DNA of 36,678 bases from Armatimonadota bacterium (GTDB taxonomy: Bacteria > Armatimonadota > UBA5829 > DTLH01): the NCBI GenBank assembly GCA_029551395.1, contig JAKPFN010000064.1, positions 1 to 36,678 of the forward strand, read 5' to 3'. The position numbers and the translations under genes are program-made. Position 1 is the stretch's first letter. Every line of letters begins with the position of its first letter. A model generated the notes under the pieces. That model searched no databases. It saw only the letters and a program-made list of their open reading frames with translations, and was not told where the DNA came from. This document shows, piece by piece, positions 25,927 through 29,719 of this stretch.

Positions 25927-26595
25927 CTACAGGTCAGTTCCGTTGATAACCAGCCTGAACTTGTAACCGAAGAAATCTGCAGCGCGGCGGCACATAAGCA
26001 TTCTGATCAGGAATATCTCGAAGTATTCCATCACGCTCGCAGCCTGAGAGTCCGTCGTCAGTTCAAGGTTGATTGTTTTCGCATCCTGGTCTACCCGAAG
26101 CTGAGATTGCTGCACGGCATGGTTGACTCTGTCATGGATGTCGAACGCCATAGGATTCGGGTTCTGGACTCTGGACTGATGTACATCAGCCTTGTCTGCA
26201 AGTATAAGCGCAGCCGCAACAGGCGACACCGGTGCGCCAAGCTCTTCTTCATGGTTCCCGATGGCCGAGATAATCGTCGCAATCTCCTCGGTTGGCATCC
26301 CCATCTTGGTAAGCAGAGTGAATGCCATGACAGCGCCTGTTTCACAGTGGATATGCCGGTTGATAGTGTTTCCGATATCATGCAGATAGCCTGCGATTGC
26401 AGCCAGTTCCGATAACCTGCCGTCAAACCCCAACTCGCGGGGGATTCTTCCTGCTGTCTCAGCCACAATCCCTGCATGCCTGAATCCATGCTCTGTGTAA
26501 CCGAGCGCATTCATCTGTTCATTTGCCTTTGATATGTATGTCCTGACATCATCATTCCTGCGGATGTCATCAAGCGTGATTATCTGTCTTTCCAT
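25927..26595 (-). CDS. HD-domain metal-dependent phosphohydrolase
   Basis: This 222-residue protein has the HD superfamily set: H in GFRHAGIVAETA, HD in AGYLHDIGN, a following H in HIHCETGAVM, then GNHEEE, and D in LADKADVHQSR. The start is ATG 26595 (MERQIITLDDIRRND), with GGAAGG four bases upstream; the frame continues to 26691 but overlaps tgt. It lies 25 bases after the tgt stop, so the two are co-transcribed. HD hydrolases act on nucleotides, phosphorylated metabolites or cyclic dinucleotides; nothing here identifies the substrate. The C-terminal 60 residues (LELTTDSQAASVMEYFEIFLIRMLMC) form a separate alpha/beta part. Confidence 0.88.
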   Translation of the reverse strand: MERQIITLDDIRRNDDVRTYISKANEQMNALGYTEHGFRHAGIVAETAGRIPRELGFDGRLSELAAIAGYLHDIGNTINRHIHCETGAVMAFTLLTKMGMPTEEIATIISAIGNHEEELGAPVSPVAAALILADKADVHQSRVQNPNPMAFDIHDRVNHAVQQSQLRVDQDAKTINLELTTDSQAASVMEYFEIFLIRMLMCRRAADFFGYKFRLVINGTDL

Positions 26596-26620: not shown

Positions 26621-27796
26621 TTATTCGGACATTCGAGGCTGCCCGTCACCGACTTCTGCACGGTGCTTTCGATATTTGGCGAGGAACTCACGACGATACT
26701 CCTTCAGCCGGTCTTCTTCTATCGCCTGCCGTATACCAGCCATAAGTTTATAGTAGAAATACAGGTTGTGATAAGTTGCAAGCCGCGCTGCCAGTATCTC
26801 ACCAGACATATAGAGATGCCTCAGATACGCTGCACTATAATTCTGGCAGACTTTACATTCACACTCAGGGTCAACAGGGCTGAAGTCCTCCGTAAACCGA
26901 GCGTTCTTTATATTTATCCGCCCGTAGGTGGTATAGAGCGACCCATTTCGGCCAAGTCTGGTCGGGAGAACACAGTCGAACATATCCACCCCGCGCCAAA
27001 CCGCATCCAACAGGTCTTCAGGTGTTCCAACGCCCATCAGATAGCGGGGCTTCTCTCTTGGAAGCTCCGGAACAGTCCAATCCAGCACATCCAGCATAGC
27101 CTGTTTAGGCTCTCCGACCGATACACCGCCGATCGCAATACCTGGGAAGTCCATATCAACAATCGCACGGGCACTGACCTTACGAAGATCCTCATAAGTG
27201 CTGCCCTGAATGATGCCGAAAAGCGCCTGCGGAGTCCCGCTTCCACCTTGTGAGATACTTCCTGATGCCTGCCATTCAGCTTTGCACCGTTCAGCCCAGG
27301 CATGAGTGCGTTCCATCGCCGCTTTGGCCTTCTCATGGCTTACAGGATACGCCACACACTCATCGAACGCCATGATAATGTCCGCGCCGATTGACTTCTC
27401 TATCTGTATTACGGTTTCTGGCGAGAAAACGTGCGTTGATCCGTCGATATACGACTTGAAAACTACCTCATCCTCACCGATCACCCTCAGATGCTCCAAG
27501 CTGAACACCTGAAAACCACCGCTGTCTGTGAGAACCGCATTCGGCCAGGACATGAACTTATGGATTCCGCCTGCCCGTTCTATGACTTTGTGTCCGGGCC
27601 GAAGGTAGAGGTGGTAAGTGTTCCCCAGGATGATCTTGAACCCGATCTCCTGAAGTTCCTCCTGGGTCATCGATTTGACTGTCGCCTGAGTTCCCACAGG
27701 CATAAAAACTGGTGTTTCGACAGTAGCATGAGGCAGTTTAAGAATCCCCCGCCTCGCCCTGCATTCCGTGCTTTCAGATATTATGCTGAATTCGAT
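26621..27796 (-). CDS. tgt: Queuine tRNA-ribosyltransferase (tRNA-guanine transglycosylase), probable AUC start
   Basis: This enzyme exchanges G34 for preQ1 in tRNAs with GUN anticodons. The TIM-barrel core has DSGGFQVFSL (base-binding Asp), MAFDEC, GGVSVGE, LMGVGTPEDLL, the nucleophile region FDCVLPTRLGRNG and the zinc site CECKVCQ...H. The first ATG (27703, MPVGTQATVK) would delete about 30 conserved residues and has no ribosome site. In the same frame upstream the sequence reads EFSIISESTECRARRG, then VETPVFMPVG, which matches the conserved Tgt N-terminus. That part contains no ATG, GTG or TTG. GGAG lies eight bases before an ATC at 27796 (five before ATC 27799), and TAA at 27833-27835 closes the frame. 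I therefore place the start at ATC 27796 (391 aa). Confidence 0.9.
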   Translation of the reverse strand: MEFSIISESTECRARRGILKLPHATVETPVFMPVGTQATVKSMTQEELQEIGFKIILGNTYHLYLRPGHKVIERAGGIHKFMSWPNAVLTDSGGFQVFSLEHLRVIGEDEVVFKSYIDGSTHVFSPETVIQIEKSIGADIIMAFDECVAYPVSHEKAKAAMERTHAWAERCKAEWQASGSISQGGSGTPQALFGIIQGSTYEDLRKVSARAIVDMDFPGIAIGGVSVGEPKQAMLDVLDWTVPELPREKPRYLMGVGTPEDLLDAVWRGVDMFDCVLPTRLGRNGSLYTTYGRINIKNARFTEDFSPVDPECECKVCQNYSAAYLRHLYMSGEILAARLATYHNLYFYYKLMAGIRQAIEEDRLKEYRREFLAKYRKHRAEVGDGQPRMSE

Positions 27797-27831
27797 GATT
27801 TTTTCTCCGAAATAACAATTATCCCGGCCAT

Positions 27832-27861
27832 ATTATACCACCACAGCCAACCTGACGTCAG
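27832..27861 (-). promoter_or_regulatory. Promoter of the tgt-HD operon
   Basis: A perfect TATAAT lies at 27837-27832 on the minus strand, with CTGACG (27861-27856) 18 bases upstream. The start point would fall near 27825, leaving about 28 leader bases before the ATC at 27796, with the GGAG site in between. This fits the upstream non-AUG start, not the ATG at 27703. Confidence 0.65.
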
Positions 27862-27956
27862 TAGGGAGAGAGCATGAGTAACGAGTGAAAAACAAGTTCG
27901 GGAAATACTCTATAAGCATAAAAGCAGGCAAGGGATCAATCCCTGACTCCTGGCCA

Positions 27957-28928
27957 CTATCCACGGAATCTGTAGTTTTTCACATTCAACGCCTTCCAAA
28001 GAAGTCCTGGGTGCTTTGATATTGCTTCTATCAGTTCAGGATCATCAGTCAGAAGATCCGCTCTTATCTCTCCTGCATCCAACAGCTGGTCTAGGAAGTC
28101 CATCTCTGTCTTGCGTAGGGGAAGGATGATGCTCAACCTCTCGCGGCACTCATCCACGAGGCGTTTGGCCCAAGTGTACCGGTCTTCTATCTTGGCAAGT
28201 GCCTTACAGCTTAGGACAGGTATTAACTGACTCTCTAATTCCCGCACATCGAAACCGACATTATCTACCGTTATCTTTCGCCAGTCTTCGCGGTTGATGG
28301 CACCATAGACGACGAAAGCCAGCCGCAGCTTTTCCACATCAAGCAGGTCAAATGTGAGCAGTCGATGAGCATCGTAGAGATCTCTTCCAGCATGACGCGA
28401 GAAGAGCGCTGCTAGTTTCCCAGCTAATATCTCGTGGATATCCATCACCGGAACACCGACAACTGAATAGCTGCCTACAGAACATGAGTCCATCGGTGTC
28501 ACTGTAAAGAGTGGGACGCGATACATGTAGTTTATATCGAGCTGTAGTACGCCAGTTGGTGTAACAACACTTCTATAACTCAGGTTATACTTTCCTCCAG
28601 CATGGTCTGACGGACTTCTCGTGATTCTATAACCTTCACGACTACATATCGCAGTTATTGCCTGCTCTATCTTCGGCCTGTCGGCTTCCATGCCTTCCTT
28701 ATCCACACAGCCAACATAGTTTAGATCGATATCAACGGACAGCCTAGGCACATCAAGGAGGAACAGGTTTAAGGCTGTGCCACCCTTCAATGCCAATTTG
28801 CCTCTAAGCTGCGGATGAGTGTTCAACAGGTCAAGGAGGGACAGGAGATGGATGACCTTTTCCAGTATCTCTGGTCTATAACCAGTTGATCTGGCCTCTG
28901 ATGTCAATCGCTCTATCGAAAGCCTCAT
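27957..28928 (-). CDS. abiEii: AbiEii-type nucleotidyltransferase toxin
   Basis: This 323-residue protein belongs to the AbiEii/DUF1814 nucleotidyltransferase toxin family. The pol-beta-like site is visible as LALKGGTALNLF, followed by the acidic pair in RLSVDIDLNY. Further family motifs are VMDIHEILAGKLAALFSRHAGRDLYDAHRLL and the basic helices near the C-terminus. In studied systems AbiEii stops growth by nucleotide transfer to RNA (tRNA for related MenT toxins). Its ATG overlaps the stop of the antitoxin gene by four bases, the usual arrangement of type IV AbiE systems. No truncation is seen, so the toxin is probably intact. It could act in phage defence or genome maintenance. Confidence 0.9.
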   Translation of the reverse strand: MRLSIERLTSEARSTGYRPEILEKVIHLLSLLDLLNTHPQLRGKLALKGGTALNLFLLDVPRLSVDIDLNYVGCVDKEGMEADRPKIEQAITAICSREGYRITRSPSDHAGGKYNLSYRSVVTPTGVLQLDINYMYRVPLFTVTPMDSCSVGSYSVVGVPVMDIHEILAGKLAALFSRHAGRDLYDAHRLLTFDLLDVEKLRLAFVVYGAINREDWRKITVDNVGFDVRELESQLIPVLSCKALAKIEDRYTWAKRLVDECRERLSIILPLRKTEMDFLDQLLDAGEIRADLLTDDPELIEAISKHPGLLWKALNVKNYRFRG

Positions 28929-29719
28929 TGTTCTTCCCAGCTTCGTTTAAGCACGGTATCGGGTACCACCAGGTTCCACTTGGATATCAAAGTGTTGCTC
29001 CCCTTGTGTGACCTGTCAAAATAGTGTGGGGACTTTGGACGGAGTCTGACCAGACGCTCCAGGTATTCGTCATCAACCATCAACTGCCCCCTGTGCTGTT
29101 CCAAAAAGAATCCTACCTTTGCAGCAGTCGTGGCATTCCCAAGCAGTTCCACGTACCGGAATACTACAGCAAAGTCGAAGTACTCTATCATCTCAAGTGA
29201 ACGCCATATCTCCTCCCAGCCCCCAGCAAGCTCTGGCCGCTGCATCACATCCACCATTGTCCGTTCCAGGCTCGTCACCCGCAGATCCTCGCCGTGGGAG
29301 TCTTCAGTATTCACCCCATACATCTCCTCACCTTTCTTTACTAGCGACTGTGGAAAAAGGACTGGCTTGAAGGTCTGGCCTTCATATTCAAACGGCCGGA
29401 GTCGTGAATGGGATAGGTAGATATAACTGCTCCAGTAGGAATAAGCCTTACCATAGAACTGAAGAGCAGTGTGATACGCTAGTACTGAGTCAGGAGCCAT
29501 CTTTGAACATACCAGGTAAGGGTCAGCTACTACCGTCTTACCGGGAGGTGTACTCAGATAAAGTGCTTTACGTATCTGTTTTACCCGACCTGTGCCAAGA
29601 TGATATTTCAACAACTGCCGGCAACTTGTGGGCTTTGCATTTTGATGACTGCGGCAGAAATCATCAAATTCCTCGATGCTAAACACGGTTTTTGCATTCA
29701 GAAACGCTTGCGTCTTCAT
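28925..29719 (-). CDS. abiEi: AbiEi-type antitoxin and autorepressor
   Basis: This 264-residue protein corresponds to AbiEi antitoxins: an N-terminal winged-helix domain (FSIEEFDDFC...RQLLKYHLGTGRVKQIRKALYLS), then a larger domain that neutralises the toxin. Typical family traits are DPYLVCSKMAPDSVLAYHTALQFYG, LSHSRLRPFEYEG, and VTSLERTMVDVMQRPELAGG. In studied AbiE systems this protein binds inverted repeats in its own promoter and represses both genes. Here two identical-layout palindromes lie upstream (29756-29774 and 29843-29859), in line with that. AAAGGGA lies six bases before ATG 29719. The stop overlaps the toxin start, giving coupled translation. Confidence 0.88.
   Translation of the reverse strand: MKTQAFLNAKTVFSIEEFDDFCRSHQNAKPTSCRQLLKYHLGTGRVKQIRKALYLSTPPGKTVVADPYLVCSKMAPDSVLAYHTALQFYGKAYSYWSSYIYLSHSRLRPFEYEGQTFKPVLFPQSLVKKGEEMYGVNTEDSHGEDLRVTSLERTMVDVMQRPELAGGWEEIWRSLEMIEYFDFAVVFRYVELLGNATTAAKVGFFLEQHRGQLMVDDEYLERLVRLRPKSPHYFDRSHKGSNTLISKWNLVVPDTVLKRSWEEQ

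Follow-up and report, generated by a model that had tools for sequence, protein, structure and literature searches.

Where does translation of tgt begin when its frame holds no canonical start codon ahead of the conserved N-terminus? The question is raised by the minus strand of the window (the whole 36,678-nucleotide stretch analysed, part of a source genome of 3.58 Mb in 165 contigs), for which an initial annotation had proposed a start at an AUC codon. The locus was analysed in its own sequence and in that of its relatives.

Anatomy of the tgt locus

The following features were assigned in the window:

26621..27796 (−): tgt, queuine tRNA-ribosyltransferase, 391 aa counted from AUC; Pfam and PDB matches
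27794..27796 (−): AUC proposed as the start, 8 nt downstream of GGAG; aligned with the start of relatives, and the coding signature starts here
27797..27799 (−): second AUC, a less likely start, 5 nt after GGAG; not the aligned position in relatives
27805..27808 (−): Shine-Dalgarno (SD) sequence GGAG, matched by GGAG, AGGAG or AAGGAG in 11 relatives
27833..27835 (−): in-frame TAA within the −10 box, the upstream limit of the tgt frame
27701..27703 (−): earliest ATG of the frame (the Met in FMPVG), in the conserved core; rejected as start
27832..27861 (−): sigma-70-like candidate promoter, CTGACG-18-TATAAT, 10/12 matches in a promoter scan, TG preceding the −10 box
25927..26595 (−): HD-domain gene (PF01966), 25 nt after tgt, with its own ATG start

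In a Pfam search the TGT domain was full-length (PF01702 profile positions 1–356 of 357, E=4e-164), and TGT structures in the PDB aligned from query residue 5 onward. The conserved Tgt N-terminus was encoded between the in-frame TAA (27835–27833) and Met 27703, a segment with zero ATG, GTG or TTG in frame, just as the initial annotation had described it; its further statements, that GGAG lies eight bases before ATC 27796 and five before ATC 27799 (found at 27808–27805), that a TATAAT box lies just upstream (the promoter-like site spans 27861–27832) and that the TAA limits the frame, were likewise borne out on this strand. Read from 27796, the predicted N-terminus was (Met-)EFSIISESTECR. Judging from the promoter-like site, the transcript would start about 25–30 nt before the AUC. 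The tgt leader folded no better than shuffled sequences (z −0.12), an Rfam search of the window and of L001 gave no riboswitch (including preQ1) or leader family at tgt, and searches for phage DNA and viral contigs gave no match.

The HD-domain gene, which had been paired with tgt from the outset, is its downstream neighbour in family f5 and in most of the order, and is likely co-transcribed with it; its ATG stands after an AGGAAGG site. On the other side, an AbiEii-type nucleotidyltransferase gene (PF08843; 27957–28928, −) is the immediate upstream neighbour of tgt, from which it is separated by a terminator-like hairpin bearing a T-rich tail (27929–27945, −), and is itself preceded by an ORF of 264 aa without a Pfam match (28925–29719). 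No relative of the AbiEii-type gene was seen at the other tgt loci compared.

Start codons of tgt in relatives

Start codons were compared in relatives, as the initial annotation had suggested. The order, which belongs to the Armatimonadota as do the named outgroups of the Tgt tree, was sampled by 19 genomes, of which 18 gave a tgt match; phylum members outside the order were represented by best matches. The codon aligned with ATC 27796 was AUC, AUU or AUA (AUH) in 12/18 loci of the order (ATC in 7, ATA in 3, ATT in 2), distributed over families f1, f2 and f3 and genera g1, g2, g3, g4, g5, g8 and g9, and the same fraction, 12/18, was without a usable canonical start. GGAG, AGGAG or AAGGAG stood 6–9 nt upstream of the AUH codon in all 12 genomes, the SD being AAGGAG in f2 and the shorter GGAG in the window. 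Because 12 separately assembled genomes share an AUH codon, the AUC start is not due to chance. At the same position canonical codons were present in g10 and g6 relatives (ATG in L019 and L029, GTG in L031), and ATC 27796 was chosen over ATC 27799, a choice that the initial annotation had left open, because it is 27796 that stands opposite the AUH, AUG or GUG start of the relatives in the alignment. In genus g7 and family f5 the Tgt start was an ATG 6–8 codons further upstream, and the residue at the 27796-aligned position was Leu, Phe, Val or Met. Five relatives had canonical in-frame codons at least 17 codons upstream, with no coding signature there.

These relatives also bear on the possibility of a sequencing or assembly error, by which the true base would give ATG, or the A run would have lost or gained a base so that the frame of an out-of-frame ATG (ATGGCC) belongs to tgt. 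Draft genomes do contain errors, and an AAAAAA run directly precedes the ATC, where one extra A would join both frames. However, the AUH codon recurs in eleven other genomes, without the A run, and the out-of-frame ATG sits directly after TATAAT and so probably lies outside the transcript made from it; an error of either kind is therefore extremely improbable.

Boundary of the coding region

Differences at codon positions 1/2/3 were determined among the 12 AUH loci. Upstream of the SD they were flat, at about 0.7 for each position, and the SD stretch was devoid of a coding pattern; codons 0 to +3 gave 0.08/0.12/0.57, and codons 2–30 overall 0.26/0.22/0.63. This switch at the AUH codon indicates that coding begins there, by which Met 27703 is rejected and a longer protein becomes unlikely.

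A start at Met 27703, with the 31 codons upstream untranslated, would be the choice of a gene finder limited to ATG, GTG and TTG, as it is the first canonical in-frame start. It is contradicted by the coding pattern of codons 2–30 and by the alignment of PDB homologues from residue 5, and the equivalent ATG in G004 and G002 has no SD, which leaves it with almost no probability. The N-terminus could instead lie further upstream at another non-canonical codon, with the Ile internal, and the ATG 6–8 codons further upstream in f5 and g7 speaks for such an arrangement. The space for it is small, however: the in-frame stop and the AUH codon are 2, 4 and 7 codons apart in L007, L010 and L015, the frame reading TGA CTG AAA ATA in L007 (with only CTG and AAA between stop and ATA) and TAA GGA GAC AGA GAC ATC in L010. 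As the coding signature is absent upstream, the SD occupies that stretch, and g10 and g6 have ATG or GTG at the position of the AUH codon itself, an upstream start is considered quite unlikely. A start of tgt at the AUH codon aligned with 27796 is thus strongly supported by the relatives, through both the aligned AUH, AUG or GUG codons and the coding boundary, and on these comparative grounds is held to be highly probable.

Rarity and history of the probable AUH start

Across bacteria 118 tgt loci could be scored; a canonical start near the N-terminus was missing in 15 of them, namely the 12 of the AUH clade, two f4 loci and L038. In f4 (L032, L033, L034) it was L032 and L033 that had no canonical start near the N-terminus, and the tgt frame overlapped a TPR-like gene upstream of it, at that gene's end; in L038 (AVDCRST_MAG63), with no nearby canonical start, a CTG stood at about the expected place. 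On the Tgt protein tree the AUH state corresponded to three changes. The tree fits a single ancestral gain that was lost again in g7 and in g6/g10, and AUH seems to be the original state of the order, although it may have been gained more than once. A literature search with partial coverage found no report of an AUH-start tgt gene. As judged from sequence comparison, tgt very probably adds a new gene to those with a weak start of this known but very rare kind, and the start has been kept in many genera of the order.

Other non-canonical starts in the order

An ortholog scan compared 780 kb of G004 with 1.42 Mb of G002, part of each of these two genomes of the order, and yielded 346 reciprocal-best ORF pairs without overlaps; it was confined to pairs with aligning N-termini. 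For the 285 pairs with at least 60% identity, a shared canonical start with SD was found in 211, a canonical start without SD in 66 and none in 8. By its margin for an SD-placed AUH common to both members of a pair, tgt ranked first, and the sole clear non-canonical starts among these reliable pairs were tgt and rpsF. The scan's remaining AUH candidates, among them a PfkB-like gene and an HD-domain gene, were rejected because their SD was weak or a canonical start was close by. As a positive control, infC across the order had AUA or AUC, as expected; inspection of the IF3 alignment by eye gave nothing obviously unusual.

For rpsF (S6), no ATG, GTG or TTG properly spaced after a strong SD was found in L278 (G000:C143, the source genome itself), L268, L269, L270, L274–L277, L279–L281, L283, L286 and L288, and the near-cognates at the start position were ATA, ATC, ATT or ACG. 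In f1, including the source genome, this was ATA at 8 nt; in f3 an in-frame TGA followed by ATA or ATC; in g7 ATC, ATT or ACG; and in g3, g8, g9 and g10 ACG at 8 nt, in some then ATA. In f5 and g6, GGGAGG was followed by ATG (GTG in L284). The near-cognate start of rpsF is treated as a lead because in f1 and most of f2 translation may instead begin at an in-frame GTG that overlaps the SD. A common scheme, in which infC, rpsF and tgt share weak near-cognate starts in the order (AUH, perhaps ACG in rpsF) as an IF3-sensitive group linking the supply of ribosomes and the queuosine modification of tRNA to the level of initiation factor, is speculative and rather improbable.

Proposed explanation

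The initiator fMet-tRNA would read the tgt AUC (27796) through a third-base mismatch. The SD GGAG, 8 nt ahead of it, would position the start, and the short leader would be transcribed from the gene's own promoter. During descent the AUH codon would have persisted, with A, C and T exchanging at its third base, except in g6 and g10, where AUG or GUG would have taken its place, and in g7, where an AUG further upstream would have done so. IF3 would discriminate against the AUC, and the Tgt level would be low and vary with IF3 or initiation conditions. The start and anatomy of this explanation, with its regulatory half taken as an inference, are held with good confidence. By analogy, the weak start is likely to lower Tgt output; that the AUC acts as a regulated, IF3-sensitive control has about an even chance at best. 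The suggestion in the initial annotation that queuosine synthesis and the HD gene could be held down by inefficient initiation would fit published AUH starts elsewhere, and for the HD gene it would need translational coupling or polarity because that gene has its own ATG after AGGAAGG.

A serious rival, given substantial weight although somewhat short of even, is that the AUH start is real and unregulated, a product of near-neutral drift tolerated because little Tgt is needed. Some laboratory bacteria can do without Tgt. The AUH codon was lost in g6, g7 and g10, and it is dispensable for tgt in the order, since these three genera do without it. On the other hand, seven genera have retained AUH, its third base varied but was never G in the AUH set, and the SD has persisted, all of which is still compatible with drift. 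Gene finders restricted to ATG, GTG and TTG would cut Tgt short in this clade, and an AUH start in a tRNA-modification gene, alongside AUH infC and near-cognate rpsF, would offer a comparative handle on the selection of weak starts for regulation.

Comparison with known AUH-start genes

In Escherichia coli, pcnB has an AUU start, a case other than infC. The infC gene for IF3 (AUU, AUA or AUC) has an AUH codon after an SD as tgt does, and its AUH start is present in this order as well; infC, however, controls its own product, whereas Tgt is a tRNA-modifying enzyme without known feedback on initiation. IF3 discriminates against AUU, AUC and AUA starts (PMC4611024). In S. aureus, AUA and AUU starts gave about 10% of the AUG reporter output in poor medium, and the ccpN start gave up to 30% in rich medium (PMC13009471). 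The S. aureus genes ccpN (AUA) and cvfC1 (AUU) combine a lineage-conserved non-canonical start with an SD, as does tgt; their starts lower output and were shown by ribosome profiling, whereas that of tgt is supported by comparison, and they are other genes in another phylum, with extended SDs as against GGAG in the window and AAGGAG in f2 (PMC13009471).
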